From a virus: DNA of 30,396 bases. Each line of letters opens with the position of its first letter. The stretch's first letter is position 1. The notes beneath the pieces are model-generated. The model made no database searches and had not been told where the DNA came from. It worked only from the letters and a program-made list of their open reading frames with translations. Location: the IMG/VR virus record IMGVR_UViG_3300028829_002358, positions 1 through 30,396 of that record; one strand, written 5' to 3'. Both the position numbers and the translations under genes were made by a program. Shown here piece by piece: positions 3,256-26,931 of the stretch.

Positions 3256-3418
3256 CGCTCATTGCAGCAAGAGACAACCTGAGGAGCGAGCACGTAACCC
3301 ACGTGACTCGCACCCGGGCTGTCCCGGTGAGGTGTGGGAGTACAGAAAACTATACGGTGGCAATGATCGCACGCTTGTTGCGTGTGACTGTTCGTGCCAT
3401 CAGGAGACAACAACATGA
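3245..3418 (+). CDS. Small Cys-rich hypothetical protein
   Basis: A 57-residue protein with cysteines as HCSKRQ near the start, HPGCPGEVW in the middle and CDCSCHQ at the end, a pattern that may hold one zinc ion. Start: the GTG at 3245 (GTG ACA ACT AAC) overlaps the MazG-like stop by 11 bases and follows gggcggcgg. The frame extends upstream to an ATG at 3188, but that stretch lies within the previous gene. Its stop overlaps the RuvC-like start as ATGA. Function is unknown. Compact size, Cys content and coupling to a nuclease gene fit a small accessory or nucleic-acid-binding protein, but this is inference. Confidence 0.55.
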   Translation: MTTNAHCSKRQPEERARNPRDSHPGCPGEVWEYRKLYGGNDRTLVACDCSCHQETTT

Positions 3419-4008
3419 GACAGATCATAATCGCTATCGACCCCGGCACGGAACGCTCGGGTTGGATGATATTCGATCGTGACAATAAGCCGTGGCAATG
3501 GGGGTGGTGGGAGAACGAACGCATCATCGACAACTTACTCGACGGGTTCGTAACGCTAGTGATCGAGGACATGGCACACTTCGGCCCGAACATACGGGCA
3601 GGGCGTGACGTGTTCGAGACGTGCAAGTGGATGGGCAGGTTCGAGCAGAAGGCAGGTAACGCCACGTACTTAGGTCGAGTGCAGATCAAGACGCACATCA
3701 CGGGCATGGCATCGAGCAAGGACAAAGACGTACGCATTGCTCTGATCGACCGCTTCGGTGGTGAGCGTGAAGCTATCGGCGGTATCAAGTGCGCCACATG
3801 CAAGGGCAAGGGGTGGACTGGTCGTGGTCGACCGGCATGTACCGACTGTCATCACACCAACCCCAAAGCGCCGCTAGTTCCCGACGAACTTGGTTGCGGG
3901 TACGAGGTACACCCCGGCGTACTGCACGGCGTGAAGTCACACGAGTGGAGTGCGTTGGCTATCGGTCAGACGTATATCGATTCACTAGATGCGGAGGTGG
4001 CGATGTGA
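3415..4008 (+). CDS. RuvC-like Holliday-junction resolvase with zinc-finger insertion
   Basis: The 197-residue protein starts with the RNase H-fold strand of RuvC, IIIAIDPGTERSGW (Asp9 catalytic). The second acidic motif is LVIEDMAHFG (Glu51). The helix SSKDKDVRIALIDRFGG (residues 100-115) fits the family, and the C-terminal motif is SHEWSALAIG (His176/Glu177). Canonical RuvC has a further Asp in HxxDAL; here it is Ser179. Between the helix and the last motif sits a DnaJ-type insertion with CATCKGKG and CTDCHH (residues 126-146), and further Cys161, likely binding zinc. Phage RuvC-like enzymes resolve branched DNA before packaging. The ATG at 3415 follows aggaga at 8 bases and was preferred over the ATG at 3394. 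It overlaps both neighbours by 4 bases. Confidence 0.8.
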   Translation: MRQIIIAIDPGTERSGWMIFDRDNKPWQWGWWENERIIDNLLDGFVTLVIEDMAHFGPNIRAGRDVFETCKWMGRFEQKAGNATYLGRVQIKTHITGMASSKDKDVRIALIDRFGGEREAIGGIKCATCKGKGWTGRGRPACTDCHHTNPKAPLVPDELGCGYEVHPGVLHGVKSHEWSALAIGQTYIDSLDAEVAM

Positions 4009-4717: not shown

Positions 4718-4878
4718 CATACGCCGAACTCTCGCTGTACCCGTTCCACAGGCGTGAGGCTATCCTGTCGGCGGCGTTTGAGTGGTATCTGAACCGGCAG
4801 ATGACGCTCCCGCTTGAGGACGAGAGTGCTTCGACAGACCAGCACGCCGACCAAGCCGCATCCAATCAGCCCACGTGA
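4708..4878 (+). CDS. Small hypothetical protein at the end of the rightward block
   Basis: A 56-residue protein, MQITYAELSLYPF at the N-terminus and a polar Gln/Ala/Ser-rich tail. A purine-rich ggcgggggcgag precedes the ATG at good spacing and the start overlaps the preceding gene by 10 bases, as at other junctions of this block. The middle segment FHRREAILSAAFEWYLNRQ looks like an amphipathic helix. It overlaps the oppositely oriented gene at 4760-5026 by 119 bases, tail to tail, so one of the two C-termini may be little constrained. No family is recognised. Confidence 0.55.
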   Translation: MQITYAELSLYPFHRREAILSAAFEWYLNRQMTLPLEDESASTDQHADQAASNQPT

Positions 4879-5026
4879 TCTCACACCCACCGTCGCTCAT
4901 CTCGAGTAGCTCGTTGGCGGCGGTGGGTGACGTGCAGTCCTCGAAAGCTGCACCAATCCGCATCACTCTCAAGTAGTCACTTGGTATGAGGCGTGCCATC
5001 GTCCATATCCATAGCTTGTATCTCAT
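4760..5026 (-). CDS. Hypothetical protein, last gene of the leftward block
   Basis: An 88-residue protein with a clear aggagattacg ribosome-binding site. The ATG overlaps the TatC-like stop as ATGA, so it is coupled to tatC. The N-terminal segment is hydrophobic and basic (MRYKLWIWTMARLIPS), possibly membrane-associated. The central part (AAFEDCTSPTAANELLEM, then GGCEITWADWMRLGRR) is a small mixed domain with two Cys. The last 25 residues are Ser/Thr/Gly/Pro-rich and lie opposite the last rightward gene. No family is recognised. Close coupling suggests it acts with the TatC-like protein or in a late lysis or membrane function, by inference only. Confidence 0.65.
   Translation of the reverse strand: MRYKLWIWTMARLIPSDYLRVMRIGAAFEDCTSPTAANELLEMSDGGCEITWADWMRLGRRAGLSKHSRPQAGASSAGSDTTQTPPTG
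4884..4929. repeat. Perfect 9-bp inverted repeat at the convergent gene junction
   Basis: CACCCACCG at 4884-4892 and CGGTGGGTG at 4921-4929 are exact reverse complements separated by 28 bases, beginning 6 bases after the stop of the last rightward gene. A GC-rich hairpin here could help end transcripts arriving from either side, but no T-run follows on either strand, so a classical intrinsic terminator is not shown. The element lies inside the coding part of the leftward gene at 4760-5026, so the repeat may also be coincidental coding sequence. Confidence 0.4.
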
Positions 5027-5922
5027 CGTAATCTCCTGATCTTGTCTCGTAGCTTACGCCATGCCCAACGTGCGCCCACGTGCGGCCGCTTCGCAATCCA
5101 TACCAGCACATCGATCACGCTTTGCAGTATCCAAATCACTAGCCAACGTACGCCACGATACACGTAGAAGTCTGCGAAGTAGTTGCCCGTGTGTCGGTGC
5201 GTTACCCACACCGATAGCACGCCCACCTCGAACAATGCGTACATGGGGATGAACACGCTGAACGTGAGCGTACCCTCGATCGATGGCGTGATGAACACGG
5301 CGAACGCCAGTAGCCCGAGCGTCAGGTGTAAACGCTTAGAACTCAGTTGGTGGTACGTGATGACGTTGCCCTTACCGAGCAGGTAGACAACGATTGGCAG
5401 TACGAACACGAAGCCTATCGACACGCCTAGCTGCGTGATCTCTTCGAGGTAGTCGTTGAGGTCGATCACGGCGACCGCTACGCCTTTGTTGTAATCGAGC
5501 AGGAACGTGGTCATCACGCCCAAGACCACGTAGTAGAAGAACGCTAACCCTGTGATGAACGCACCCAAACTCAGCGACAGGAACACGGTCGTGTATGCCC
5601 ACCACCGATAGGGAATCAGACGTTTCGCTAGACCAAGAAGCCCGTACGTGAGCACGAGTACGAACGTGATGAGGAACGTCTTGGTTGCAAGACTGATCGA
5701 CGCACCAAAGCTAGAGGTCAAGCCCGTGTATACGAGGCGACCCTCGAACGGTGACAGTCGCCCTTTAGCGGGTGCGATCAAGAACTCGATGACCTCTTCG
5801 CTATACGCGAACGTGTAGCCAGCCACGATCAGGCCGAGTAAGGCTCCGAGTCCAACGTACTTACGTACGTGTGTACCGAGCGTGAACCCCGCCGCTCGCC
5901 AGAGCAGGACGAGTGCGAGCAA
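5023..5922 (-). CDS. tatC: TatC-like twin-arginine translocase membrane protein
   Basis: A 299-residue polytopic membrane protein with six TatC-type hydrophobic segments (about residues 21-40, 72-99, 107-142, 162-184, 197-215, 219-240) plus an extra C-terminal one (258-277) and a basic tail. Family landmarks seen: FLIAP after TM1 (the conserved Pro of periplasmic loop 1), FFYYVV in TM3, DLNDYLEEI before TM4, FVLPIVVYLL in TM4, FITPS after TM5, and IPMYALFEVGV in TM6, almost the same as E. coli IPMYCLFEIGV. Missing: the loop-1 PxLxxxE motif (E. coli Glu103), replaced by KRLIPYRWWAY, and the TM4 Glu170, replaced by Val174. TatC normally binds RR signal peptides and builds the Tat pore with TatA/B. 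The start is TTG with a weak ribosome-binding site, probably coupled to the upstream gene. Confidence 0.8.
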   Translation of the reverse strand: MLALVLLWRAAGFTLGTHVRKYVGLGALLGLIVAGYTFAYSEEVIEFLIAPAKGRLSPFEGRLVYTGLTSSFGASISLATKTFLITFVLVLTYGLLGLAKRLIPYRWWAYTTVFLSLSLGAFITGLAFFYYVVLGVMTTFLLDYNKGVAVAVIDLNDYLEEITQLGVSIGFVFVLPIVVYLLGKGNVITYHQLSSKRLHLTLGLLAFAVFITPSIEGTLTFSVFIPMYALFEVGVLSVWVTHRHTGNYFADFYVYRGVRWLVIWILQSVIDVLVWIAKRPHVGARWAWRKLRDKIRRLR

Positions 5923-5925
5923 TGA

Positions 5926-6114
5926 CTAATCGTCTCGTGCGCTTGCACGGGCAGCACGCTTGGCGATTTCCTCTTCAACTTTTGCGTTGACTTCGTTCGC
6001 CTGATCGCGCTTGTTCTTGTAGATCGCCGCTGCTCCAAGCAGTAGCACGGCGACGATGATGAACGAGAGTGTCATCGTGTCGGGTACGGGTATTACGGCT
6101 AGTGTGTTGAACAT
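5926..6114 (-). CDS. Small single-span membrane protein, TatA-like in layout
   Basis: A 62-residue protein: a short N-terminal part, one hydrophobic span (TMTLSFIIVAVLLLGAAAIY, about residues 13-32), then a highly charged helix (KNKRDQANEVNAKVEEEIAKRAARASARDD). This order, a short membrane anchor followed by a charged amphipathic helix, matches TatA/TatB in layout, but the TatA FG motif and LPEL-type hinge are absent. The ATG at 6114 was preferred because agagagac precedes it; an in-frame ATG lies 12 codons upstream at 6150. The gene ends with TAG, and TatC follows in the same frame after one more codon. TatA is a plausible role given the neighbour, but a holin-, spanin- or chaperone-like membrane peptide is equally possible. 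Confidence 0.7.
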   Translation of the reverse strand: MFNTLAVIPVPDTMTLSFIIVAVLLLGAAAIYKNKRDQANEVNAKVEEEIAKRAARASARDD

Positions 6115-6115
6115 C

Positions 6116-6193
6116 TTATAGTCTCTCTCTTGCGGATTCCAGAACGTCAATCACTCGACTGGCGTTGATTACAAAATCATCGAACGCTTTCAT
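6116..6193 (-). CDS. Tiny candidate ORF (25 aa) in the membrane-gene cluster
   Basis: The product is a 25-residue peptide, MKAFDDFVINASRVI then DVLESARERL, with the look of one amphipathic helix. It fits exactly into the space between the 59-aa and 62-aa genes: its ATG lies inside the end of the upstream gene (17-base overlap) after gaggg, and its TAA is one base before the next ATG. The placement and ribosome-binding site favour a real gene. The small size gives little statistical support, so it may only be a translational bridge. Confidence 0.38.
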   Translation of the reverse strand: MKAFDDFVINASRVIDVLESARERL

Positions 6194-6356
6194 CAGCCCT
6201 CGGTGGCTTATCACGGCGAAAACGATTACGAAACACATGCTTCTTGACGTCTTTAGCCACCTCGGGGGCGACCATCTCTGTCGTTATACCAGCAGCCGTG
6301 CCTAAGCCTAAACCGGCAGCTAGGTACATGAAGAAAATTCTAGTGGAAGAGATCAT
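6177..6356 (-). CDS. Small single-span membrane protein with basic tail
   Basis: A 59-residue protein: MISSTRIFFMYLAAGLGLG begins a Gly-rich membrane span (about residues 6-27), followed by an acidic-to-basic amphipathic stretch (TTEMVAPEVAKDVKKHVF) and an Arg-rich tail (RNRFRRDKPPRADESVR). Its ATG overlaps the stop of the upstream gene as TAATG. The topology is TatA-like or class II/III holin-like. No specific signature decides between them. Together with the 62-aa protein and TatC it makes a cluster of membrane proteins at the end of the late block, which is where lysis or export functions often sit. Confidence 0.65.
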   Translation of the reverse strand: MISSTRIFFMYLAAGLGLGTAAGITTEMVAPEVAKDVKKHVFRNRFRRDKPPRADESVR

Positions 6357-6688
6357 TACTTGTCACGCTTCCCGAGTGCGCCCTCGAACGCACCCTTGAT
6401 ACCGGCAATACCCATGTCCATCCACTCACCTAGCGCACGGTTCCCCGGCGCCTTAGCTGCGGCCTTGAGGCGGTCGGTGTCAATCACACCGTCAAGCTGC
6501 TCGTTTATGTCATGTGCGATCTTCCCGAGGTTTAGTCGTGGAATAGTCGTGACTTCTTCACCACCATCACCGTCGCTATCGCTATCGGTAGGCACACTAA
6601 TAGGTGCTTCTTCGACGGGCGGGGGCGTGACGGGCGCGGCAGCTTCGGGTTCAATAATGTTTTCCTTGTCGATCATTCGGTCTGACAT
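6356..6688 (-). CDS. Acidic hypothetical protein with C-terminal amphipathic helix
   Basis: A 110-residue protein with a good ribosome-binding site (ggagggtaacg before the ATG). The first half is acidic and Pro-rich (EPEAAAPVTPPPVEEAP, then DSDSDGDGGEE), probably unstructured. The second half is helical (LNLGKIAHDINEQLDG) and ends in a Gly-rich amphipathic helix (GEWMDMGIAGIKGAFEG) with a basic terminus. No family is recognised. The C-terminal helix could contact a membrane or another virion protein. It overlaps the 59-aa membrane protein by a single base, so it may share its expression and function. Confidence 0.7.
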   Translation of the reverse strand: MSDRMIDKENIIEPEAAAPVTPPPVEEAPISVPTDSDSDGDGGEEVTTIPRLNLGKIAHDINEQLDGVIDTDRLKAAAKAPGNRALGEWMDMGIAGIKGAFEGALGKRDK

Positions 6689-6924: not shown

Positions 6925-7226
6925 TAGAGAGCCTCGAGGTAGGTGACTTGTATCGCTTGACCGTCAGAGTCTACATCAACCCATACGGTTGACAGGTCGA
7001 ACGGCTGCATCGGGACGGTTGGGTACGGCGGTATCACGAGTGGCTCATCGGTGTGATGAAGACTGCGCCCTGCCGTAGCGGACACGTTCTCGTCACCGAT
7101 GTACGCACTCGTACCAGTCTCAGCTGTGAACTCAGCCCACATCACGAGCGTACCCGTTGACGTGACCTGTTCTTGCGTACCCGCAGTCGTGACTGCCTTG
7201 CGTATGACCTTGAGAAGTGCGGGCAT
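6924..7226 (-). CDS. Small beta-sandwich structural protein
   Basis: A 100-residue protein, mostly strands: QEQVTSTGTLVMWAEFTAE, GTSAYIGDENVSATAGRSL and FDLSTVWVDVDSDGQ. The pattern (a quantity such as xxIGDxxVxAxxGxxL, then DLSxVWVDxDxDGQxxxVxY) is common among short phage virion proteins encoded beside head or tail genes. The ATG overlaps the stop of the 1306-aa tail gene (TAATG), so it is translationally coupled. Its place in the virion is unknown; a head or tail decoration role is the best guess. Confidence 0.7.
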   Translation of the reverse strand: MPALLKVIRKAVTTAGTQEQVTSTGTLVMWAEFTAETGTSAYIGDENVSATAGRSLHHTDEPLVIPPYPTVPMQPFDLSTVWVDVDSDGQAIQVTYLEAL

Positions 7227-10200
7227 TAGCTACTCCAACTTGCTGAGTTCGGAACCACGAAGCATTGCATACTCACAGCACGCACGATCTGTGACTCGCC
7301 TGTTGTTGCGTCAGGGTAGTGTGCGACATCTACCTCTTCGTACCCGTTCACGTACGGGATGACAGTGTGAGCCACGCCCTCACGGTCGTACAACGTGGAC
7401 GCCCATAGGTCAGGGTCGAGCATCGCACGTAGCGCAACACGCTTGTCCTCACCACGTGTTGTCTCGTTGCCAACGTCGTTAGCAATCAAGGCTGTGAACT
7501 CGAACACGTCAACTATGCGAGGCCGTACCGTACCGGCGAGTGACAGTTGCGTTACAACTGGCGTCTCCGAATCTTCGGTGTGACCTAGCGTCAACTCAAT
7601 CTCAATGTCCTCGGACACTACGCTCGCTACGCTACCCGTCTTGAAATACTTTGTCTCGGCAGGTGACGTGCTGAACTCACCTAGCCCTGAGCCACCGAGT
7701 TCGTTGAACCCTGTACCGTCGAACGTGTTGTACTTGGCTGTGATCTTGCGACCGTTCGAGCCTAGCTTCTCGTCAGATTCGGATGACGTCTTGACCGTGA
7801 CCTCTTGCCAGTTGGTTTTCCAACCGGGGAAGCGTGTGATGCGTCCGGTTCTGAACGTGCCATCTGCCTCGAACTCGTACTCAGGGTCGTAGCGAGGATT
7901 CTCTGTGTTGGGAACGGATACCCACCCGAGTTTGTTATTCAACTCAGACCCGCTCGCAACCGTGTAGTAGACCTTCATGGATATGTGGTCAACGGATGCG
8001 ACATCACTCAAGTCACCTGTAACTGACAACCTAACTCCGAAGTCGGCATCGTTCACCATCGCAACCGTTGGAGAGATAGACCAGTTGTCCGACGTGCCAC
8101 CGTAACTCACGCTCGCATCTGACGTCGGCCACGCCGTAAGCGGGAGTGCCTTGTCATCACCCGCAGGTGTACCGGAAGCGTTGAGCAGTTGCAACGTTGC
8201 GTCTTTGACTGTGCCGTTGGTCGACTTACGCTCGATACCCACAATGATGCCGTTGATCGTTGAGCCTGTTGGAACTGTGAACCCGAACCCTTGCACGTCG
8301 AGGTAGTCAGATGTTTCGTTCGTGTCGTAATGAATCGTGATCGTGACGTGATCGATACGTGCTTGTATATCAGTGACAGACGTACCCTTCGTGGCGCGTA
8401 TCTCAACACCAAAGTCGGACGCTACTACTTGCGCTCGTGTTGGTGTTAGACCCCACAGGTCAGAAGAACCACCGTAGTTCGCAACAGCATCGCTCGTACC
8501 CCACGCAGTTACAGCGTCAGCCTTATCGTCACCGACAAGCGAGCCACCCACCACGAGTTGCACCAACTTATCCACAACGTCTGTGCCTGTATCAACAGAC
8601 TTCTCAACATCAACTTCGATACCGAGTATGGTTGCGTCCGATGGCAGCACGCCGCCGAGCGAGAAGTTAGTCGCACGTAGCCCGTCTGTATCAGGCAGCG
8701 TGTAAGAGATTTGCATTGCAACGTAGTCGACCGAAGCAACTGGCGAACCCGCGCCGTTGTACTCATGAACTACGAACCGGAAACCGAAGTCAGCGTCCTC
8801 AATGTCTGCGACAGTCCAATCGCTCTTGCCCCACAACGATGCCGTGCCGCCCCATGTCTTGTCTGCCACGGTTGTAGACCAGCTACCAGCACCACCGGTA
8901 TCCGTTCCGCTGATCTTCGTGCCGTTGTTGTGCAACTGGAGGCTGCCGCCGTAGATTTCACCATCCACATCAGCGAAAGCGTCACCAATCTTAGTCTGAA
9001 TACCAGTGATGGTCGCCCCTGACGGGATACTGAACCCGAAGTTATCAGCCGTTAGATAGTTAGATGCGTACGGGTACGCGCCGCCCGGGTTGGGGTTGGT
9101 AGTGTGTGACCCGTCATCTGCTGTTGCGTTAGACGGGATGCTCCACGACGTCGAACCGATGCTTTGGTTCACGACAGTACCGGCTATTTGCCATCCTGTT
9201 TGAATAGAGTCCATGTCTGACGATGCACGTGAATCGTCGCTCGCACCTATGTTGCTGCCGTTATCCCAAGTCTCGCCGTTCGTGTAGTCCGTGACCGCAA
9301 CTGTGCCGGGAGATTTCTCTTGTTCAGCCGAAGTCTCGTTAGGCCACGTAGCGTACGTATCGTCGCTCGCAATAGCGTTAGTCTCGTTGCTCCACTCACG
9401 ACCGCTCGAGTTGTCCGTGACAGCAGCCGTACTCGGGGATGCTTCTGTGCTGATCGATGCAGTCTCACCCTCTTGGTCTTGGCTCGTCCAGAACAGTTTA
9501 GTTCCCGGCATCTGTGTGCCAGTTATCCAACCGTGCCGAACGATACCCGCATCGATCTCAGCTACATGACCCCATCGCCACTCTGTATTGCTAGTCGGTC
9601 GACCAGCCATGATGTTAGATTCGGTCGGGCTTGCGCTGTCCCGCTTCTGAACGAACGCATACAGCCACGTGTCATCTCCGATAGCCATTGAGACGGGGCC
9701 GTTGTACTCGTCGTACGCTGCGTTGTTGTCGCCCGGGTGAGCAGGTCGACGTGACGCAGGATTCATTCGCCAGAGTCCATGACTTCCAGCGGGAATGTAT
9801 GCGTCACCCAACCAGCCGTGTCCACCCTGTGATCGTGCCTGTTGCCTGTGGTGCGCCCAGCTGCTTGCAATGTTTCGGGGGATACCGTTCTCCCCGATGA
9901 TAAATACAGCATCCTCTTTCACGATGTAGAGAATGTTCGCCTCAACTACGAGGTCGAGTATGTCCGAGTCGCTGTTACCGATGGAGTAGTACATCCATCC
10001 ACCGCTTGACGGTGTGGTGCTCACAGCTAGGACGTTCGGGGCGACAGCTTTCCAGAGCGCGTCGTAACCGAACACGGTCTGCGTTACCGCGAGTTGATCT
10101 GCGTACCTATCGCTGCCTGATAGCGTGTTGTCTGTCCACGTGACCCCATCTGTGCTGTGTGTCCAGAGTCCAGACGCACCCTCACCGCGCCACATGCGAT

Positions 10201-11146
10201 CATTCATAACCACGCAGTCGGTGATGTTGTGCGACGCTAACTCCTGTGCTTTCCAACGGGGTAGCCCGTTGTCATCAGCATCAGCGGTATCAAGCATCCA
10301 CGTAGTGCGACCGGAGAACGAGAAGAGTGTATCCGTGCCGCTTATCTCGAGTTCAGCAAACGGCCCCGGTGGGCCAATGAGATATTCAACCTCGAGTTTC
10401 ATGTCATCGAAGTAAGCCGTGTCACCGTTGGCAGGTATGAGGTCGACGGTTAGCAGCGAGAGTGCCGCTGTCGATACGTCGAGACTGACACTCACATCTT
10501 CCCACGCATCTGTCGTGGTTGAGGTGAAGTCAACGTCACCGATGCTGTTGTTGATACGTGCTATCGCTGCACTATCGCCAGCTGGAACGTACACCTTGCC
10601 GGTGAGTGTGAGTCTGCATTGCAGGAAGTCGCCGTGTGCCAGTGTGAACCTGAGTAAGTCTCCCGACACTGACGTTAGAGAAACCGAGGCTGAACCCTCG
10701 CTTACGATGGTGTTCTCTTTCGCAGTAATAAGCGAGCCACCCACCTCAGTCCAACCAATAGGAACACTTGCGCCATCGAATAACTCCATGTTCCCGTTGT
10801 CGAGATAGTTGATGTCGCTTATGTAGCGAATCTTCGGGCCACTGAATATCTGATCTTCAACTAGCGTGTTCACGTTCTTGACTAGGCCGCCAAGTGCTGA
10901 ACCCTCGTGATGTCGCTCAAACCCGACACCCCTGTGAGATGATTCAATCGTGTATTCAAGGCGTACTTGTGGGTCGAATGACTCAGACCCGGGAGCATTA
11001 GGTGGCGCCGCAGAAGGAAGTATCGAACGTGTTGTCTTGCGGAACGCCACGCTACCATCTTCATTCGATAGAAGATTCAGCCCGACGTCCTCACTGTATC
11101 CCGGTGGGAGTATCGATATGTCTGCGTTACCTACTGCTCTTGCCAT
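7226..11146 (-). CDS. Large multi-domain tail/appendage protein with carbohydrate-binding-like and repeated beta modules
   Basis: A 1306-residue protein. Order seen: N-terminal region; a jelly-roll (CBM4/9-like) module at about 115-255, starting LDNGNMELFDGASVPIGW and ending YFDDMKLEVE; a Trp/Gly-rich, propeller-like region at about 260-565 (for example MWRGEGASGLWTHS and SHGLWRMNP); two direct 42-residue repeats at 570-653; three related beta modules at about 690-810, 818-935 and 945-1062, each with a GFxIPxGAxIxGI-type start, then a DLWG or DNWS motif and an ADFGV-A-SVDHVxMxIxYT-like end; and a C-terminal domain. Podovirus-like tails or adhesins often have such composition. A glycan-binding or receptor-facing role is inferred. 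It overlaps both neighbours by one base. Confidence 0.75.
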   Translation of the reverse strand: MARAVGNADISILPPGYSEDVGLNLLSNEDGSVAFRKTTRSILPSAAPPNAPGSESFDPQVRLEYTIESSHRGVGFERHHEGSALGGLVKNVNTLVEDQIFSGPKIRYISDINYLDNGNMELFDGASVPIGWTEVGGSLITAKENTIVSEGSASVSLTSVSGDLLRFTLAHGDFLQCRLTLTGKVYVPAGDSAAIARINNSIGDVDFTSTTTDAWEDVSVSLDVSTAALSLLTVDLIPANGDTAYFDDMKLEVEYLIGPPGPFAELEISGTDTLFSFSGRTTWMLDTADADDNGLPRWKAQELASHNITDCVVMNDRMWRGEGASGLWTHSTDGVTWTDNTLSGSDRYADQLAVTQTVFGYDALWKAVAPNVLAVSTTPSSGGWMYYSIGNSDSDILDLVVEANILYIVKEDAVFIIGENGIPRNIASSWAHHRQQARSQGGHGWLGDAYIPAGSHGLWRMNPASRRPAHPGDNNAAYDEYNGPVSMAIGDDTWLYAFVQKRDSASPTESNIMAGRPTSNTEWRWGHVAEIDAGIVRHGWITGTQMPGTKLFWTSQDQEGETASISTEASPSTAAVTDNSSGREWSNETNAIASDDTYATWPNETSAEQEKSPGTVAVTDYTNGETWDNGSNIGASDDSRASSDMDSIQTGWQIAGTVVNQSIGSTSWSIPSNATADDGSHTTNPNPGGAYPYASNYLTADNFGFSIPSGATITGIQTKIGDAFADVDGEIYGGSLQLHNNGTKISGTDTGGAGSWSTTVADKTWGGTASLWGKSDWTVADIEDADFGFRFVVHEYNGAGSPVASVDYVAMQISYTLPDTDGLRATNFSLGGVLPSDATILGIEVDVEKSVDTGTDVVDKLVQLVVGGSLVGDDKADAVTAWGTSDAVANYGGSSDLWGLTPTRAQVVASDFGVEIRATKGTSVTDIQARIDHVTITIHYDTNETSDYLDVQGFGFTVPTGSTINGIIVGIERKSTNGTVKDATLQLLNASGTPAGDDKALPLTAWPTSDASVSYGGTSDNWSISPTVAMVNDADFGVRLSVTGDLSDVASVDHISMKVYYTVASGSELNNKLGWVSVPNTENPRYDPEYEFEADGTFRTGRITRFPGWKTNWQEVTVKTSSESDEKLGSNGRKITAKYNTFDGTGFNELGGSGLGEFSTSPAETKYFKTGSVASVVSEDIEIELTLGHTEDSETPVVTQLSLAGTVRPRIVDVFEFTALIANDVGNETTRGEDKRVALRAMLDPDLWASTLYDREGVAHTVIPYVNGYEEVDVAHYPDATTGESQIVRAVSMQCFVVPNSASWSS
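9188..9439 (-). repeat. Tandem 42-codon repeat inside the 1306-aa tail protein
   Basis: Two consecutive 126-base units encode SPSTAAVTDNSSGREWSNET... and SPGTVAVTDYTNGETWDNGS..., both continuing NxxASDD. A third, incomplete copy (SWSIPSNATADDGSHTT) precedes the first full beta module. The units look like the linker or head part of the beta module copied without the module body, so the gene probably grew by unequal duplication. The period comes from the DNA: GTCCGTGAC recurs at 9287 and 9413. Confidence 0.6.
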
Positions 11147-14392: not shown

Positions 14393-15340
14393 TTAGGCAG
14401 CTGAGTCGATACCGCCGAGTCCGATGATGGACTTAGGCTCAAATACGGCAGACCCCGGGTATCCGATGAGGCGGTAAACCTCTTCGTTCCGGTTCTTACG
14501 GATGCCGAGGTTCTGGAACTCGACGTCGAAGAATCCACCGTTGTGCAAGAGTGTGTAACCACCCTTATCCATGCCGAACTTCAAGGCGTAGATCGTTGTA
14601 GCTGTGGATGAACCCCACGTTGCTGCATCGGCGTACTGCTCTGAGTTCGAGATGTAGTCGTTCTCGATGATTGGAATGTCATCGAAGGTCTTGACGCGGC
14701 GACCGAACATTTCGATAGACGGTAGGCTAATGCCAGAACCGGCTGCGTTCATGAGGTTGGTCAGCTTGCGTCGCATGGTCTTGTTCATGACGAGAGCATC
14801 GGGCAGTCCCGGCTCAACTCCGTCAATCACCTCACGTAGACGAGCGATCGTGAGTTCAGTCTCGGCAGTACCGGGGCCATTCATCACGCCATCGTCCATC
14901 GCAACCATTCGATTTTCGACTCGGCACTTCTTCTCGATGCCATCGAACTGCAAAGAGTTCACGGCTGAGTCGCCGTTGATAACGAGATCAGCAAGTTTTC
15001 GACCGTAAGACTTTGACATCTTCTTCTTGAGAATTACAAGAGGGTCTTGCTTGCGTGCGGTCTTTTTCTTCTTGAGGTTCAGATAGTTCTGAACGTAAAC
15101 CGTCTTTAGCGTCTCGTTGCCTTCGGCAAATTCGATGTCTCCATCGACGAGTTCGCCTTCGTCAGACGCTTCCGCTGCGGTCGGGTTGACCGACTCACGT
15201 TCGTAGTCGTATGACGTACCGCCGACATCGCCTTCAAACTCAAGCCACGGCATGAGTTGATCTTCGGTGTAGATGGTGTCCCACACGCCTTGAACTTCAA
15301 AGGTCTGATCGACCTTATCCCACTGTGCAATAGTGGACAT
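14393..15340 (-). CDS. Major capsid protein, HK97-fold type
   Basis: A 315-residue protein with aggagcacccaaa before its ATG. Features of the HK97 fold: an N-terminal arm, an E-loop-like strand region (residues 40-90), a basic helix (VILKKKMSKSYGRKLADLVINGD, about 103-125, the spine helix), an A-domain stretch with PDALVMNKTMRRKLTNLM, PSIEMFGRRVKTFDDIPII, and a C-terminal strand pair GGFFDVEFQNLGIRKNRNEEVYRLIGY. It lies between scaffold and decoration genes, the usual order. It forms the capsid shell. No cross-linking Lys/Asn pair can be identified by eye. No separate prohead protease gene was found in this window. Confidence 0.85.
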   Translation of the reverse strand: MSTIAQWDKVDQTFEVQGVWDTIYTEDQLMPWLEFEGDVGGTSYDYERESVNPTAAEASDEGELVDGDIEFAEGNETLKTVYVQNYLNLKKKKTARKQDPLVILKKKMSKSYGRKLADLVINGDSAVNSLQFDGIEKKCRVENRMVAMDDGVMNGPGTAETELTIARLREVIDGVEPGLPDALVMNKTMRRKLTNLMNAAGSGISLPSIEMFGRRVKTFDDIPIIENDYISNSEQYADAATWGSSTATTIYALKFGMDKGGYTLLHNGGFFDVEFQNLGIRKNRNEEVYRLIGYPGSAVFEPKSIIGLGGIDSAA

Positions 15341-16287: not shown

Positions 16288-19200
16288 TTAGCGTAGAGGG
16301 GTCGGAGTCAAACCGTCCTGCCTCATTTCACGCAGCTGTGTGCGCTCATTCCGCACGTTCCCACGGTTCTTTGCACGGTGTCCATAGAAGTCTATGAGTG
16401 CCTGATCTACCGCAGGATTGTTCTTACGGATACGATCACGGCGGCGCGTAACCTGCTTCTGGATACGTGCAAGTCCACGGTACTGTCGCTTCATCGCTTC
16501 CTGAGTTAGCGGGTCTGACATTTCAAAGTGGTTCCAGACCATCAACATCTGATCGTTGTCACCTATGATGTCCCGTGCTTGCTGCCAGTAGCGAACTGCG
16601 TTGAGTTCTTCTCGTGCGTCACGTAGTGCGAATACGACTTCTTGTCCTGCAAAGTCAGGCTCAGACTGGAATCGCTCACCCTCTGCATTACGCCCGAGGT
16701 AGTTGTTCCTCATGCGGTTGTATAGGGTTTCGCCTTCTGCGTTGCCGAACTCAGACTTGAGAGACTTGAGGAACTCTGTTTCAGCCTTGTCCTTCTTGTC
16801 CCAATCGACTAGGCCGGTAGCCTCGTCCTCGTAGTTGTCTACGTTCTTCACCGTGTCCACGTACTCGTCAAAGATTTGGTTGAATAGAGTCTCACCCTCG
16901 AGTCGTGACTGACGCTTATCGTCGAGGTACTTGATTGCGTCCTCGTGTATACCGCTCTCTTCGAGCCTGATACGTGAGTTGCGTGCCTCTCGCATGATTG
17001 CGTCGTACTCTTCTCGGAACGTAGCACCGTTTTTGTGCACCTTCAAAGCGTTGGCGGCGCGGCCAACAGTGTCATCGATCATCGTGTCGATCGACTTACG
17101 GTCAGCAAAGTATTTGCCCACGGTAGGACTCTCGACAGTTTGAACCAACTCGTCGATCTCAGCGAGTCGACCACGGTTGTCCCTGTCCAATGCTTCGATA
17201 GTGTTGCGCTCGTCCACGTCGAGGTGTTCCCACTTGCGACCGTATGCGTCCTTAGCCAACTCGTTACGCATCGCTGCTCGCTGCTCGAAGATAGACATTG
17301 GACGCCCTCGGAGTCCTGTCGATTCCGCAACAGTTGAGATAGCAGACGGGTTCGGGTTGCCGATGCTTGGGTTGAGATACTCCTGCATAGCGAACGGTGC
17401 GAACTTCGGAGCCATGCCCTTGACCACGTAATCAGATGGTGTGTCTAGTGCCTGACCGTCGAACGTCTCGCCCAACATAAAGTCCCGTACACCGGGAGCC
17501 ATACGGTTGAGCCAGAAGTTAGGGATAGGGTTCTGAGCACGGTGCAGCGGGTCGAAGATGTTCCACTTCGTGAGATCACTCGCCTGATTATCGTCGAGTT
17601 CAGCCATTGAAGCTGCGCTCTTGAACACAGTATCGAGTAGTGCTCGAGTCGAACCACCAACACCCACACGTTGTCCACCTACGGTTACGGTCAACCACCC
17701 CGGCTTCATTGGGTTGAGTCCGTTCTCTTTGAACTCTTCCCACTGTCCGGTAGCCATTGCGTATCCAGCCATGAGCGTCGTAGATGCAGCGATCATTCCG
17801 CTGATCGACTTGACTGCTTCTCGTGTTGCAAGTCCTTCGATCTGACCTGCACCCTTCGCGCCGCCAGTCAACGCCTTCATCGCCTGACCCGTGACAGCGA
17901 AAGCTGATCGAGTGAAGCGAGGTGAGAACAGGAGCATCCCGCCCTCAAGCTGACGCTGAGTCTGACGTACTCCGAGCATCTGAGAGTTCAACGTGCCTGT
18001 GACGTTGTTGATGTACGTAGCGATCTCTCGCTTGGTCATCACGTTTGCAGCAAGCATCGGATTGAACGATTTCCAAAGTTCAACCTTGCTGATGTCTACG
18101 AACGTGTTGAATCCAGAACCTAAACGACCGAGAGGTTTGACGTCTCGACCCCATAGTTCAGTCATCTTTGCAACACGGCTACCACGAGGTGCGATCTTGC
18201 CGCCACCCCCGGGTATCCACTTAGGCGTCTTGCCCTCTTTCACTGTCAGCCAATTAGTCACACTCGAGAGCGTGCCTGTCCGGTCGATAGCGGTGAAGAA
18301 CTCGGAAGAACCTAGATCACCCCCGTTCTTCAAGAAGTCCATGATGTCGGGCAAGTTGTCGACTACGTATATGTCACGCTTCCCGGGCTGCAACACAGCC
18401 TCGAGAGAGTTGACCGCAGCCTTAGCAAATGTGAAAGGGTGCATCGCAGCAAGCAGCGACCCTTGTATACCCATCCAGCCAATGTCGGCTGAACCGGCAG
18501 CAAGAGTACGAGCAGTACCCGTGACCTTCTCGATGTTTCGTAATGCGTCGATACCGTTGTCGCCAAACGCTTTCTTCAATTCTTTAGCGTGCGACTGAGG
18601 TGCGAATGACTTTGCGAGTGGGCCGTTCTGGAAGTGAGTTACCTCGACCCTCGACTTCTTCATAGCTTCGCCGGTTTCACCAAACGCTTTCAACTGCATG
18701 TCTCGGCTCTTAGCTATTCGTTCCATGCGTTGAACCTTGAGGTTCTCAACTCGTGAGATCGTTGCTGCAACTAGGGCTACCTCTTTCTTGGCAAGTTCCA
18801 AGTCGTTCGTAATACCCAAGACCTCTTCCTCAAACTTCTGCACCCTGTTAGCAGATGTGTTGAGTCGCCCCGCAGCAGCTTTCGCCCTGTCGTTAGCCTT
18901 GTAGCTGACGCCAACCTTCTCGTTGAACACCCTCTTGGCTTGACCGTAATACTTACGTGCTTGGTTACGTGCGGTTCGAGCCTTGATCTTGTCTTGAGTT
19001 GATGCGGCCTTACCCTTCTTGAGTATGGCTGTGTACGCATCCTGAGCGTCCATGTAGGAAAGCTGTCGACGCACGAGAGTAATAAGCTGACCTTGTGCTT
19101 GGTTCGATGCAACAAAGGCTTCTCGACCGCGCCGCCCAGCATCAGCAGCCACGCTCTTTACATCGGACTTGCCACCCGTAACGTGAACTGCTTTCGACTT

Positions 19201-21294
19201 GCGATCAGATGCCTTACGCATGAGACGGTTCATGTTTGCAACGGCTGACTTCTCAGCCTTACGCAAGTGCGACAGGTCTTGCATCATGTTAGGGAACAGT
19301 CGCTCGAAAGCGTCCTTGTTCGTAACGACGATGTTCTCTCGCTTGAGATAGTTCATGGCGCGCTTGTCTGCGATCATCTGTGACAGCGTGATCGCCATTG
19401 ACTCGGCAGCTTCCATCGGGTGAGCGTAGAGGATTCCCTCGCGTGCGCCCTCTTCCATCGTCTCGAAGTGACGTGAGGACTCGAAGTCTCCACGACCTGA
19501 GCCGAAGCCATCACCCTGACCGTCCTTGAACATGAACTGCTTTGTCTCGCCAGCCTCGTCCCATATCTCGCCACTGATAGCTTCTCGGTGGTGGTATCGG
19601 AACATCTGATCGACGTCACCGAAGGCTTGTGTTGGCTCGTCCGCATCGTTCAATCCGAACTTGAACCCGACACGCTGTCCGTTCTTGACCTCGATTGCGC
19701 CTTCCCTCTCGGCAAGTTTCAACCAGTCCTCGGTGTACTTGTGAAATCGGTTTATAGCTAGGTTCTGATCTGGCGTCAGTCCTGTGAAATAGCTGTTCAT
19801 TCCTGAGCGTGTGCCTTTACCGCCCGGGAGAAGATCGCTCAATGCCAACTCAAGAATGTCACCCATCATGAAGCCTTCTGCTTCAAACTTGGCTATCTCT
19901 TCTTTCGTGAATCGAGGCTTGCCGGTTTCCTTGTCTATCTTCCCGAAGAACTTTCGCCCTTGCGGAGTGAGTTGCATGTTGCCCACACGTGTGCGACCGA
20001 ACTGGTCGACGTTGAATACCTTGTCGAATACCTCTCGGTTGACGTACGAAAGTCCGACACCGATCTGTTGTGCGAGTCGAGCAGCTGCGTTCTCACGAAT
20101 GACAGACGCCTTAGCCACACCGTTCTCACCGATCACGGCAGACGGGTCTGCGAGTTTGATTATGCGATCGTACGTCTGCTGACCTAGACCGGAGATGGCT
20201 TGGTAACGTCGTGTCGTTTCCTTGCCACGAATCATCTCGGGTATCTTGTTCAGTACGTTATCGAATCGCCAGTCCTTCGTAGTGATCTGCTCTATGTGTT
20301 CCTCTTCCGCAATAAGCCCCGGCGCAAGATCGTCCGGTTCAGGAGCGTGAGCGATTTGGCTCTGACGCTTCTCATAAGCCTTGTTAGGGTGGAGGACGTC
20401 AGAAACTGACTCTCTGGCGCCATGTATAACGTCACTCGGACTCGGAAGGCCAGCGATAGCAGCCCGAGTACCGGCTCCACCACTAGCGACTTCACCCGGG
20501 ATTTTAGCCGACTTAGACGCGATGTTACGGATGCCTCTTGCACCGATCGATTCGGTGACTCCGACCTTGAGGCCAGCCGCTGCCGATTGTCGCCCGACTG
20601 CTGCCGCAGCAAGTCCCGTGCCTTTACTGAAACCTCCTGTTGCAAATGTGAGGGCGAGGTCAATCGGGTCGAACCCTGCTTCGATAACGTCTTGGAAATC
20701 CAGTGTGATCGAGCCGTCCGGCGTAAAAGCGGTCGTGGCAAAGGGGATTTTGAAGGGGAGTTCGTAGGTTCCGTGGTGATCTTCCCACGCCTTGCGGACA
20801 GCCTTCGAGTGCGAAAGTCCGGCCTGTTTGTTCTCTGCAACTAACCTCTCCATCTTCTGCGTACCGGGGAGTGCCTTCTGTACTGCGTCAACAGCGTGAG
20901 GCGCAATCGTTTCAGCCACGTTCCCACTCCACTCAAGACCTGCCAGTACGCCCTGTCCAGCCTTGACTAGAGGGAAAGCGAACGGGCGCAAGAGTGTAGG
21001 CACATTCTTTACTGTGCCTTCACGCACGTCGCCTAACGCCTTGAGTGCTCCGCTACCGAAGTGTTCCTTTGGTGCTTGCACACCTAACTGATTTATTCCG
21101 GTAGGCGGGGTTGCTGTGAACCCGTCCGTTGCTTCTGGCTTCTTTACCGGAAGCGTCGAGAACGTGTCGGCAGGATTGGCGTCTAAGTATTTAGACGTAC
21201 CAGCCTGTGCGTTCTTGTCTTGGATAGCTTTGATTTTAGCCTGACGCTCTGCTCCGATTGCCTCGAAGTCGAGCGGGGTTGGTGGCTGTGGCAT
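16288..21294 (-). CDS. Large internal virion protein with LPD38-like (large polyvalent protein) domain
   Basis: A 1668-residue protein. The part from about 915 to 1260 resembles the LPD38 polyvalent-protein domain: a membrane-prone stretch (IGWMGIQGSLLAAMHPF), a basic block, IATYINNVTGTLNSQ, the LLFSPRFTRSAF motif and a second hydrophobic stretch (MIAASTTLMAGYAMATG), then MKPGWLTVTVGGQRVGV. Before it lie long charged helices (residues 650-870). Small Lys/Arg-rich and helical parts follow to the C-terminus. Polyvalent proteins of podo- and related phages are carried in the virion and enter the host with the DNA. No lysozyme or peptidase motif was found. It sits between a coiled-coil protein and scaffold. 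The start overlaps the upstream stop (TAATG). Confidence 0.7.
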   Translation of the reverse strand: MPQPPTPLDFEAIGAERQAKIKAIQDKNAQAGTSKYLDANPADTFSTLPVKKPEATDGFTATPPTGINQLGVQAPKEHFGSGALKALGDVREGTVKNVPTLLRPFAFPLVKAGQGVLAGLEWSGNVAETIAPHAVDAVQKALPGTQKMERLVAENKQAGLSHSKAVRKAWEDHHGTYELPFKIPFATTAFTPDGSITLDFQDVIEAGFDPIDLALTFATGGFSKGTGLAAAAVGRQSAAAGLKVGVTESIGARGIRNIASKSAKIPGEVASGGAGTRAAIAGLPSPSDVIHGARESVSDVLHPNKAYEKRQSQIAHAPEPDDLAPGLIAEEEHIEQITTKDWRFDNVLNKIPEMIRGKETTRRYQAISGLGQQTYDRIIKLADPSAVIGENGVAKASVIRENAAARLAQQIGVGLSYVNREVFDKVFNVDQFGRTRVGNMQLTPQGRKFFGKIDKETGKPRFTKEEIAKFEAEGFMMGDILELALSDLLPGGKGTRSGMNSYFTGLTPDQNLAINRFHKYTEDWLKLAEREGAIEVKNGQRVGFKFGLNDADEPTQAFGDVDQMFRYHHREAISGEIWDEAGETKQFMFKDGQGDGFGSGRGDFESSRHFETMEEGAREGILYAHPMEAAESMAITLSQMIADKRAMNYLKRENIVVTNKDAFERLFPNMMQDLSHLRKAEKSAVANMNRLMRKASDRKSKAVHVTGGKSDVKSVAADAGRRGREAFVASNQAQGQLITLVRRQLSYMDAQDAYTAILKKGKAASTQDKIKARTARNQARKYYGQAKRVFNEKVGVSYKANDRAKAAAGRLNTSANRVQKFEEEVLGITNDLELAKKEVALVAATISRVENLKVQRMERIAKSRDMQLKAFGETGEAMKKSRVEVTHFQNGPLAKSFAPQSHAKELKKAFGDNGIDALRNIEKVTGTARTLAAGSADIGWMGIQGSLLAAMHPFTFAKAAVNSLEAVLQPGKRDIYVVDNLPDIMDFLKNGGDLGSSEFFTAIDRTGTLSSVTNWLTVKEGKTPKWIPGGGGKIAPRGSRVAKMTELWGRDVKPLGRLGSGFNTFVDISKVELWKSFNPMLAANVMTKREIATYINNVTGTLNSQMLGVRQTQRQLEGGMLLFSPRFTRSAFAVTGQAMKALTGGAKGAGQIEGLATREAVKSISGMIAASTTLMAGYAMATGQWEEFKENGLNPMKPGWLTVTVGGQRVGVGGSTRALLDTVFKSAASMAELDDNQASDLTKWNIFDPLHRAQNPIPNFWLNRMAPGVRDFMLGETFDGQALDTPSDYVVKGMAPKFAPFAMQEYLNPSIGNPNPSAISTVAESTGLRGRPMSIFEQRAAMRNELAKDAYGRKWEHLDVDERNTIEALDRDNRGRLAEIDELVQTVESPTVGKYFADRKSIDTMIDDTVGRAANALKVHKNGATFREEYDAIMREARNSRIRLEESGIHEDAIKYLDDKRQSRLEGETLFNQIFDEYVDTVKNVDNYEDEATGLVDWDKKDKAETEFLKSLKSEFGNAEGETLYNRMRNNYLGRNAEGERFQSEPDFAGQEVVFALRDAREELNAVRYWQQARDIIGDNDQMLMVWNHFEMSDPLTQEAMKRQYRGLARIQKQVTRRRDRIRKNNPAVDQALIDFYGHRAKNRGNVRNERTQLREMRQDGLTPTPLR

Positions 21295-23543: not shown

Positions 23544-25432
23544 TACGACCTAAATCCTGACAGTGAATCGTTTAGCGGCTCGGTCACTCGTGCACCGATA
23601 CGCCCTTGTGCCTCAAGCGGCTCACCTCGAGACGGTGTACCGAACTCCGCTTGTTCTGTTGGAACACCTGCTTGCGGTATTCCTGCACCGTCTACCGGAG
23701 CGAAGTCGCCAGAGTTCCCGGCATCGGGGCCATTGGGTGACTCAAGCGGGTTCTCCGGTGCACCTTCTTCTAGGGCTGCGAGGACATCATCGATTCCGAT
23801 TTCCTCTGACGCTACCCTAGCGTATATCTGCATCATCTCAGGCGATTGCATGACCTTCCACTTCATGATGCGCTGGATAACTTCATCGGCGTTCTCCACC
23901 TTGAGGAAGTCCTCGAGCACAGTCCACGGGTCAAGCAGCTGTTGGGTGTAGTAGTTGAGTCCGAGCATACCTCGACGGTCATCTCGAGTCGGGTCTACCG
24001 GCTCAAGGTCTACGTTGAAGTGGTACGCACCCTTCCACTCATCAGGGTTGATCGTAACGATCTCTCGACCGCTTGGCTGATCTCCCCACAAACTAACGGG
24101 TTCTTCTACCAAATGCTCCATGATCGAAGCTGCACGGTTGAGAAGAGTTGCAGCTTGGCGACTCATCCTCGTTGTGACTGGACGGAACAGTTGGCGAGCC
24201 TCACCCATGTGAAGTCCGCTCATTGTTCCAGACGTCATGCCTTCTTCCCTCATACCTTCAATGGCAGGGGAGAATGTATTTTCGGACTGAATTGCTTTCA
24301 AGTCCTGTTCATATCGGTCGAGCCAACGTGGAGGCTCAGGCAACTCCATTGGGCGAGGTGCAGTCTTGCCGATGTCGGGGCCTTTGGCAGATAGAACTGC
24401 GCCTAGCCCTGCTGCAAGTTCAGTGATGGTCTTGTCAGGGTCATCCGATACGAGTGGAGTCATGCCGTAAAGCTGTGCTTGCCAACTCTTGATCGAGCGA
24501 ATCCGAGACTCTTCCATCAACTCATCTTCGATGAAGAACAACATACCTCGTGACATATCTTCTGGCTTACCGCCGAGCCACGACCACGGGCCGAATCCAA
24601 ACTGGAACGGAGCGTACCCGTAGATGTTCTTGATGGCTCCACGCTCTGTGTCGCCGGTCGCTTCGACTGTGTAGGAGACGAGATCACCGTCACCCATAAC
24701 CATTCGCCAGTTACTCGACCAGTAGATCGTGACCTCTACGTTCTGGAAGTCACGCTTGTTCTTCGGGTTGTTCCAAGTTTGAGGCCACTGAGACTGAAAC
24801 TTTCGCTTGTTCATCTCGTAGCGTTTGACTACCCACTCAGGGTTAGCCGGTGAGGTTTCGTCGAACACAACAGTGTTCGGGTCTATCGCTTCTACTTGAA
24901 AAGCAAATCTCTCTGCCTGTTGTATCTGGAAGTGGTGACGTTCACGCTCGTACTGAGATCGGGTCTTGCCGCCCTTAGTCGGCGGGGTAGGCCACCTGTC
25001 GAAATGGAAGAACGGCCCCTCGAGACACCACATGCCCATCATTGCGTGCTTCGCTGCTGTCTCAAGCGGCGGCTGCATATTGTCTGTTGCTATGTTTTCA
25101 AGGAAAGCTGACCCCCACTTCTCTAGGCGGTCGGCAACTTCCTGTGCTTGGTTCGTCTTGTTACGTGCTGGATAGCGAACGATTGGTCGATCACTTACAA
25201 CAGTAGATGCGACACGGTGAACCTTTGCGCCACCCGTGCCGGGAAGAATAGGCTTGAAACGATCAGGGTCAGGCGGGTCTAAGAACGGCTGATACCGCCT
25301 ATTCACAATGTCCCACATGCGTTTCGTTTCAGTGATGCGAGTGCCGTGGGTTGAGAAGGCGTCGTTCGCCAGTTCTATAACCTCATGCAGCTCTGGTTTC
25401 TTCTCTGCATCTTCTCGTGTCTCAATCGCCAT
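23543..25432 (-). CDS. Portal protein
   Basis: A 629-residue protein directly following the large terminase gene (start overlapping its stop, TAATG), the standard place for portal. The sequence fits a podovirus/P22-type portal: helical N-terminal part (RMWDIVNRRYQPFLDPPDPD), a central region with aromatic-rich strands (TVEATGDTERGAIKNIYGY, FGFGPWSWLGGKPEDMSRG), a long helix region (LFFIEDELMEESRIRSIKSW) and a crown-like helical stretch (RPVTTRMSRQAATLLNRAASIMEHLVEE). The C-terminal 100 residues are polar and loose. The portal ring is the DNA channel at the head vertex. The identity rests on size, neighbours and this overall pattern. Confidence 0.8.
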   Translation of the reverse strand: MAIETREDAEKKPELHEVIELANDAFSTHGTRITETKRMWDIVNRRYQPFLDPPDPDRFKPILPGTGGAKVHRVASTVVSDRPIVRYPARNKTNQAQEVADRLEKWGSAFLENIATDNMQPPLETAAKHAMMGMWCLEGPFFHFDRWPTPPTKGGKTRSQYERERHHFQIQQAERFAFQVEAIDPNTVVFDETSPANPEWVVKRYEMNKRKFQSQWPQTWNNPKNKRDFQNVEVTIYWSSNWRMVMGDGDLVSYTVEATGDTERGAIKNIYGYAPFQFGFGPWSWLGGKPEDMSRGMLFFIEDELMEESRIRSIKSWQAQLYGMTPLVSDDPDKTITELAAGLGAVLSAKGPDIGKTAPRPMELPEPPRWLDRYEQDLKAIQSENTFSPAIEGMREEGMTSGTMSGLHMGEARQLFRPVTTRMSRQAATLLNRAASIMEHLVEEPVSLWGDQPSGREIVTINPDEWKGAYHFNVDLEPVDPTRDDRRGMLGLNYYTQQLLDPWTVLEDFLKVENADEVIQRIMKWKVMQSPEMMQIYARVASEEIGIDDVLAALEEGAPENPLESPNGPDAGNSGDFAPVDGAGIPQAGVPTEQAEFGTPSRGEPLEAQGRIGARVTEPLNDSLSGFRS

Positions 25433-26931
25433 TATCGGTCATCCCATCCGTATTCACGCTGATCGGGCATCAATGGTGCACCCGTTGGTCTTAGAGAGGT
25501 CGGTCGCATCCATGACCTCGGGGTTGGTTTTGTGTTTCGCACATTTGACCTCAAGTAATCAAGTGCCTGTGACATAGAGTCCACTTGGTCATCGAACCGT
25601 GCGTTAGGAAATCCTGCCATTTCAGTTGTGAAGTCTCCCACCCACGGGGCTTGCTCTGGCACGAACAACCTGCCAGCTTCGAGCAGACCTGTATGGCCTA
25701 CCGCTCTAGTAAATTTGTCACCCTTACCCATCGGGTCGACAGTCCTCAATTCCCATAAACTTGAGTCTACTTCGAGGTCACGAATCACTGATTGCCCAAG
25801 TCCACGGTTCTCGATTAGTACCACGTTCGGGCGCCTATCGTCCCGCAAATCATACAACAATGGGAGTAATTCACCATAGCGGCGGCGCGATCTGTCTACA
25901 AATGTCAGGTAGTAACCTTGCGGCCCGACGCACCATTCAGTCATAACTGTCCACGATGCGTCGGCAGACTCACCCGAAGCAAAGTCCCAACTGTGCATAC
26001 GGTACGAAAACTCCGGTGCTCGCTCCATCGGGTAACGCCCGAGTTTGACCATATCGAACACGTTGCCGCCCATAGCGGACGGGTCGCACAGGAACGTCAT
26101 CGTGTATAGCGAGTTCCCTTTACGCTTGCGGATACCTTCTAGTCTCGAGAGCGGATACTCTTCTGGCCAGTTGGCTTCACCCGAATCAGGGTCGATCGCC
26201 GGGGTCATCATCGCCTTGAACCCCATGCCACCGTCAGCTTCGTTCTCAGGGTTAGGCTCACGAGTGTAGAGAGGCCACAGATCAGCGTCACTCCAACGTG
26301 TGAGGATGGCGAACCATCTTCCAATTGGAACGTCGTTCGCATCTGTACGCAGCCGGTCGGACATTACACCTTTGAGCCAATCCCTCTGAGAGTTCATGGT
26401 CGACGGTGATCTCACGTCCTGCTGGTCAGTAAGGTCATCGGTGAAGATTTCCTCAAAGTGCATACCCTGTACTGCGCCTTCAACACCCACACCCATAAGT
26501 GTCGGCTCAGGCCGAGCAGCGTTCTTGCGCTTGATAAACATGGTGGTTCTGTTCCAACCACGGCGCGTATCAGGTTCTATGTGCGGGAATACAAGCTGGT
26601 ACTTCTTGTTGGTGGTGATCGTCTCTTCGACAGACATTACCTGCTTGGATGCTTGAGCCTCGGTGTTCATAGCGAGACACCTTGCCCAATCGGGATTCTG
26701 CCCGATTGAGTATTCGACCCACATACGAATCACTCGTGACTTCCAGAACTCAGGGGCAGCTGAGATCGCCACCTTCTTATCTTCTGGCTTGTCCGATTGG
26801 AGTATGTCTACCCACTCCATCATGTGCCGAGCCAGTCGTACATCATGCACGTACATGCAGAAGTATTTGAAGTCTCGTCGTGCGAGTTCTGCTTTAGCTA
26901 GTTCCTCGCGTGGAATCGCCTGTGTTGTCAT
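25432..26931 (-). CDS. terL: Terminase large subunit
   Basis: A 499-residue packaging ATPase-nuclease. The Walker A-like segment is ISAAPEFWKSRV (residues 57-67), of the PxxxKS type rather than the usual G-rich loop. A C-motif-like region and Walker B follow at EEIFTDDLTD (160-169). The RNase H-like nuclease part shows WDFASG (Asp316), LIENRGLGQ (Glu374) and FDDQVDSMSQAL (Asp447/448/451), the three acidic positions of this fold. It pumps DNA into the head through the portal and cuts it. It starts inside the end of the preceding gene (38-base overlap) and ends within the portal start. Confidence 0.9.
   Translation of the reverse strand: MTTQAIPREELAKAELARRDFKYFCMYVHDVRLARHMMEWVDILQSDKPEDKKVAISAAPEFWKSRVIRMWVEYSIGQNPDWARCLAMNTEAQASKQVMSVEETITTNKKYQLVFPHIEPDTRRGWNRTTMFIKRKNAARPEPTLMGVGVEGAVQGMHFEEIFTDDLTDQQDVRSPSTMNSQRDWLKGVMSDRLRTDANDVPIGRWFAILTRWSDADLWPLYTREPNPENEADGGMGFKAMMTPAIDPDSGEANWPEEYPLSRLEGIRKRKGNSLYTMTFLCDPSAMGGNVFDMVKLGRYPMERAPEFSYRMHSWDFASGESADASWTVMTEWCVGPQGYYLTFVDRSRRRYGELLPLLYDLRDDRRPNVVLIENRGLGQSVIRDLEVDSSLWELRTVDPMGKGDKFTRAVGHTGLLEAGRLFVPEQAPWVGDFTTEMAGFPNARFDDQVDSMSQALDYLRSNVRNTKPTPRSWMRPTSLRPTGAPLMPDQREYGWDDR

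Follow-up and report, generated by a model that had tools for sequence, protein, structure and literature searches.

At the end of its late gene block, a tailed-phage genome carries an intact gene for a member of the TatC family from which both glutamates that bind the twin-arginine signal in cellular TatC are missing. TatC is a core part of the bacterial protein-export machine. The window, that is the whole 30,396-base stretch analysed here, is a metagenomic contig held as a virus record in IMG/VR. Tentatively, we favour the reading that a lineage of tailed phages acquired TatC and retained it in the late operon, to act as a late-infection membrane protein that does not read twin-arginine signals. 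Our best guess is that its job lies at the host membrane, in lysis, in export or in acting on host TatA/TatB.

The window comprises a plus-strand early block, with an exonuclease, a gp3-like protein and a RuvC-like resolvase convergent with the late genes (3394-4008, plus strand; phrog_1770, E 2e-8), and a minus-strand late block. The latter includes the large terminase (25432-26931, minus strand; phrog_38, E 1e-60; PF17289), a 629-aa protein in the portal position, an HK97-type major capsid protein (14393-15340, minus strand; phrog_212, E 6e-32) and large tail-region proteins, among them a 1306-aa protein upstream of the small-gene cassette described below (7226-11146, minus strand). The large terminase, the major capsid protein and a tail-fibre-like protein all share the strand of tatC, in agreement with the phage structural neighbourhood reported in a preliminary description of this DNA. 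The sole cellular match to the terminase is to an alphaproteobacterial MAG (30% over 169 aa). A 1668-aa protein encoded between the capsid gene and the portal region (16288-21294) has no Pfam or PHROG match; it is conserved, at 24-29%, across 17 viral loci related to this one. Three tandem paralogous genes at 28612-30325 all match phrog_14820 (unknown function), and two contigs near-identical to the window, L004 and L005, lose collinearity inside this array, at about 29252-29600, so that the array seems to recombine or turn over faster than the remainder of the genome. A very basic 33-aa ORF (MPKGKGTYGSKVGRPPKKSKKKPVKKGMARRKK) lies between annotated genes at 28164-28265 on the minus strand.

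The tatC ORF runs on the minus strand from a TTG start at 5922 to a TGA stop at 5023-5025 and encodes 299 aa, at the position first proposed. Its codon usage resembles that of the other phage genes and is unlike that of the wrong frames. The homology to TatC put forward earlier is borne out by Pfam: PF00902 matches the protein with 86.8 bits (E 2.3e-24; 87.3 bits when the whole record is searched) against a curated cut-off of 25.1 bits, and residues 26-226 align to positions 13-208 of the 208-position profile. In a PDB sequence search all significant matches are TatC chains (9e03, 9dzz, 9r91, 4b4a, 4hts, 4htt). Hydropathy analysis recovers the six spans of the family, which the protein thus shares with cellular TatC (PF00902; TIGR00945; E. 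coli TatC, PDB 9dzz/9e01; Aquifex TatC, 4b4a/4hts) together with the near-full-domain profile match; the six-span layout of the preliminary description is correct as far as it goes, but it did not include a further hydrophobic segment, the seventh, which spans residues 258-276 at the C-terminal end and is followed by a basic tail. The two motifs singled out earlier, ITP (residues 211-213) and IPMYALFEVGV (residues 225-235), are both present. The latter is identical to E. coli IPMYCLFEIGV at 9 of 11 positions, so that 'nearly the E. coli sequence' holds for the TM6 motif but not for the whole protein, whose identity to cellular TatCs is 22-25%. The score of 68.8 bits against the NCBIfam equivalog TIGR00945 is about half of its cut-off of 132.7 and lies below threshold. 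As to the glove-like TatC fold, an AlphaFold2 model built from two sequences only (pLDDT 52.9) returned TatC chains as its best six Foldseek matches, but with E values of at least 0.0038 and TM scores of about 0.3; this low-confidence model, too poor for interpretation on its own, appears to be in line with what the sequence shows but contributes little beyond that. Foldseek gave one convincing match in BFVD, UPI0003282282 (418 aa; probability 1.00), which may be another viral-labelled TatC.

The differences from cellular TatC include the site where the signal is read. The solved structure of E. coli TatBC with a substrate shows E15 in contact with the first arginine of the signal via water and E103 in a salt bridge with the second, in a site that also includes H12, F94 and Y100 (PMC13323110). 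All of 38 cellular TatCs compared (mostly from Pseudomonadota, plus Streptomyces and Bacteroides-like sequences) have E103, and 36 have E15. In the window protein, positions 1-41 and 61-142 are free of acidic residues, which makes an equivalent of either glutamate impossible whatever the alignment. It also lacks P131 and a good equivalent of Y100, and has valine in place of E170; the position of D211 is occupied by glutamate in a loop one residue longer. The residues that it shares with cellular TatC are H12, P48, F68, Y126, T208-P209, P221 and E227. Scored by halves on the cellular profile, TM1-TM3 reaches 25.6 bits (cellular median 202.7, minimum 144.5) and TM4-TM6 53.0 bits (cellular median 130.3, minimum 91.9), and the TM4-TM6 half is thus the better retained of the two. 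Because E15 and E103 are lost, the protein has probably turned to another membrane job, perhaps lysis or takeover of the host export system.

A relative of the window shows that this gene is not peculiar to one assembly. A capsid-protein scan of viral contigs yielded 80 loci, and one of the contigs, IMGVR_UViG_3300006929_000035 (41,860 bases; hereafter G001), is syntenic with the window over the structural block. Identities are 44% for the large terminase, 52% for the major capsid protein (L029), 54% for the RuvC-like resolvase (tblastn), 36% for the portal-position protein, 29% for the 1668-aa protein, 39% for a 466-aa protein and 30% over 845 aa for the 1306-aa protein (L029). One end of G001 carries a TatC gene (PF00902, 67-70 bits) that converges with RuvC at a distance of about 255 bases. 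This TatC is truncated by the contig end and lacks its N-terminal half, and a tail ORF runs off the opposite end, consistent with a map that is circular or circularly permuted and in which TatC closes the late block as in the window. The viral-database search suggested in the preliminary description thus finds tatC in a second phage, again at the end of the late block. The opinion given there, that the gene is unlikely to be an assembly artefact, also gains support: the diverged relative has TatC at the same convergent junction beside RuvC, and the codon usage of the window gene is phage-like. When 55 other viral records were searched with PF00902, TatC was found in G001 only; many of these records are short, which makes absence from them weak evidence, and the larger ones examined are distantly related. 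Three close relatives of the window (L004 and L005, and L006 with about 81% DNA identity) are short contigs that stop before tatC, and the two records of the window/G001 clade that reach across the junction both have TatC. In G001, adjacent SbcC/Rad50-like (AAA_23) and SbcD-like (Metallophos) genes (L110:4298-7542) lie immediately ahead of RuvC and TatC, and a weak DNA polymerase III beta-clamp match is found elsewhere.

The two phage TatCs have in common the extra C-terminal hydrophobic segment. Over 91 columns they are 26% identical, no higher than to cellular TatCs, and the tree has a very long branch (5.8 changes per column). With these 91 columns and very long branches the tree gave no answer on a single origin of the two genes, which is therefore argued from synteny. 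G001 TatC retains E170, an acidic residue at D211 in the P3 loop, and Q215; its N-terminal half is missing, and loss of the signal site is accordingly demonstrated in one phage only, that of the window.

In the window, tatC belongs to a run of small genes that ends the late block in the order 110-aa acidic protein (6356-6688), 59-aa protein (6177-6356), 62-aa protein (5926-6114), TatC and 88-aa protein (4760-5026), all on the minus strand, which matches the end-of-late-block position given earlier. The acidic protein heads the cassette, and the 59-aa protein, with one span and a basic C-terminus, is the second of its small membrane proteins; the first, the 62-aa protein directly upstream of tatC, has a negatively charged N-terminus, a single span and a charged helix. 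Coupling to both neighbours, as proposed before, is evident: the TAG stop of the 62-aa ORF ends 3 nt upstream of the tatC TTG, and the start of the 88-aa ORF, preceded by a good ribosome-binding site, overlaps the tatC stop as ATGA. The 88-aa protein is soluble and has no family match in profile scans. At 5922-5934 the 62-aa ORF, its TAG, one TCA codon and the tatC TTG share a frame, and read-through of this single stop would fuse both proteins. Such read-through could occur but need not be invoked: from the TTG, TatC already has an N-terminus of normal length (17 residues ahead of the histidine that aligns with H12), and several other genes of the window also stop at TAG. None of the small cassette proteins has a match in the rest of G001, whose own genes beside TatC are missing at the contig end.

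No Tat partner or substrate was recognised beside this TatC. A search for PF02416 (TatA/B/E) at E <= 10 found none in the window or in G001, and was positive in 13 of 14 control genomes. The 62-aa protein has no PF02416 match and lacks the conserved FG hinge after the span that marks TatA/TatB, with hhalign probabilities of 6-10% against them (chance level), and the 59-aa protein has no similarity to TatA. No credible gene of the window or of G001 encodes a twin-arginine signal, and no holin or endolysin was recognisable among the window proteins scanned. Host TatA/TatB could serve as the partner. Since E15 and E103 are gone, the TIGR00945 score falls below its cut-off and no TatA/TatB-family partner is encoded, the idea that the protein simply acts as TatC is not supported: judged by its sequence, it belongs to the TatC family, but to call it a working Tat receptor would be unwarranted.

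How a TatC retained in this form might serve a phage late in infection can be outlined from what is known of its relatives. TatB touches TM5 of TatC (PMC3712464), and according to a review TatA has a layout in common with the BhlA/TpeE holins and weakens membranes (PMC9527704). The 62-aa neighbour resembles these proteins in its N-terminal negative charge, its one span and its charged helix, a likeness of layout only, without demonstrated sequence similarity. The retained TM4-TM6 half may still dock a single-span helix of the TatA/TatB type, either that of host TatA/TatB or that of the coupled 62-aa phage protein. With the substrate gate gone, such gathering of helices would need no Tat substrate. 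The gathered helices would then locally weaken the membrane or let a folded phage protein pass, such as an unrecognised endolysin, and TatC would in this way belong to a module for lysis or late export, at the position that lysis genes commonly occupy. In this specific form, with TatC as a signal-blind nucleator of membrane weakening that works with a single-span partner (the 62-aa protein or host TatA) in a Tat-derived lysis or late-export device, the proposal is speculative and rather doubtful.

In favour of the domesticated, signal-blind TatC we count the PF00902 match, the synteny in G001, the lost E15 and E103, the half-profile scores and the TM5-TatB contact, together with the late-operon position, the coupled 62-aa protein, the layout shared by TatA and holins and the lack of a recognisable holin or endolysin. 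Against it we count that no TatA/TatB family match was obtained and that the similarity of the 62-aa protein to them is at chance level; that the cassette genes of G001 are missing at its contig end, which leaves the small partners visible in the window only; and that G001 keeps E170 and the acidic residue at D211 while lacking the half in which the loss would be seen.

Much of the same evidence could be read as a sign of interference. As a decoy or dominant-negative protein, the phage TatC would enter host Tat complexes or soak up host TatA/TatB, and host Tat export would be shut off or rewired late in infection, with superinfection exclusion or envelope weakening as the outcome. A degenerate substrate-binding half next to a better retained docking half would suit this role, as would the lack of phage-encoded TatA/TatB, and transport-inactive TatC variants are still able to assemble with TatB (PMC3712464). 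We nevertheless hold it to be somewhat unlikely, as its place in the late operon points to a use when infection is ending and not to a takeover early on, and an identity of 22-25% to cellular TatCs may be too low for entry into host complexes.

It is unlikely that the protein is instead a working Tat receptor with altered signal reading, the product of an auxiliary gene that would work with host TatA to export a protein of phage or host origin by means of a different targeting signal. The open frame is intact with phage-like codon usage, the window copy has H12, P48, Y126 and E227, and that of G001 has E170, Q215 and the acidic residue of the P3 loop; yet the window copy is without E15, E103 and a good Y100 equivalent, and a twin-arginine signal is missing from all credible genes of both phages. 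Less is to be said for a passenger gene acquired from a host and now decaying without function, which we consider improbable. The very long branch and the loss of otherwise invariant residues are what decay would produce, but the frame is open, its start and stop are coupled to those of its neighbours, its codons are used as in other phage genes, and the same junction is occupied in a phage with only 44% terminase identity.

Records of TatC in viruses call for some caution. The preliminary description knew of no established phage role, and none was found in the literature searched: open-paper searches returned no study of phage TatC and no characterised virus-encoded TatC. A circular marine viral genome was labelled with TatC in a figure legend in 2023, without comment (Fig. 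6 of PMC10564846), so that the bare presence of TatC in a virus is not wholly new. Virus_1/Virus_2 of that study share with the window a TatC (PF00902) annotation in a tailed virus with portal and terminase; the annotation there is a DRAM-v label only, without analysis of residues, synteny or function. Within PHROGs, phrog_36238 (unknown function) matches the window TatC at E 7.6e-12, but it matches E. coli TatC at 6e-79 and was rejected as a phage TatC family in view of this ordinary bacterial-type profile; it probably stems from a prophage prediction that extended into host genes. Among phage-labelled INPHARED records with TatC (CAKLQH020000005, CAKLQF020000005, MT837480, MT837203, OR848119, OR846728, MT835496), the Acinetobacter 'phage' MD-2021a and two faecal scaffolds proved to hold bacterial tatABC or bacterial neighbourhoods (tatABC next to metX and phoX; an operon of the radical-SAM type). 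The Salmonella matches are annotated bacterial TatC/TatD; the TatC-bearing 'phage' records of Listeria and Staphylococcus, and another two faecal scaffolds with TatC, are unannotated. Most GenBank 'phage' records with a TatC match appear to be bacterial contigs under a wrong label, which could mislead surveys of virus genes. The plasmid matches examined are ordinary tatABC loci. When IMG/VR was scanned with the TM6 motif IPMYxLFE, 13 stretches came up, of which none is TatC, and protein scans with the window TatC and its 1306-aa neighbour gave no matches.

Such mislabelling, and the origin of the window as a metagenomic contig, are what could be said for host contamination or a chimeric assembly, which is nonetheless scarcely credible and was set aside given the syntenic TatC in the independent contig G001, the identity of only 22-25% to cellular TatCs, and the coupling of tatC to phage-like ORFs with no tatA, tatB or tatD beside it. 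The evidence thus supports domestication of TatC by a phage over contamination.

A TatC that has lost its signal-reading half and better kept its docking half amounts to a separation-of-function variant made by nature. With it, one can ask directly whether TatC is able to gather TatA independently of recognising a substrate, and whether phages make use of this for lysis or for control of host export. If TatC does act as a signal-blind nucleator, it would represent a holin system of a kind not described before.
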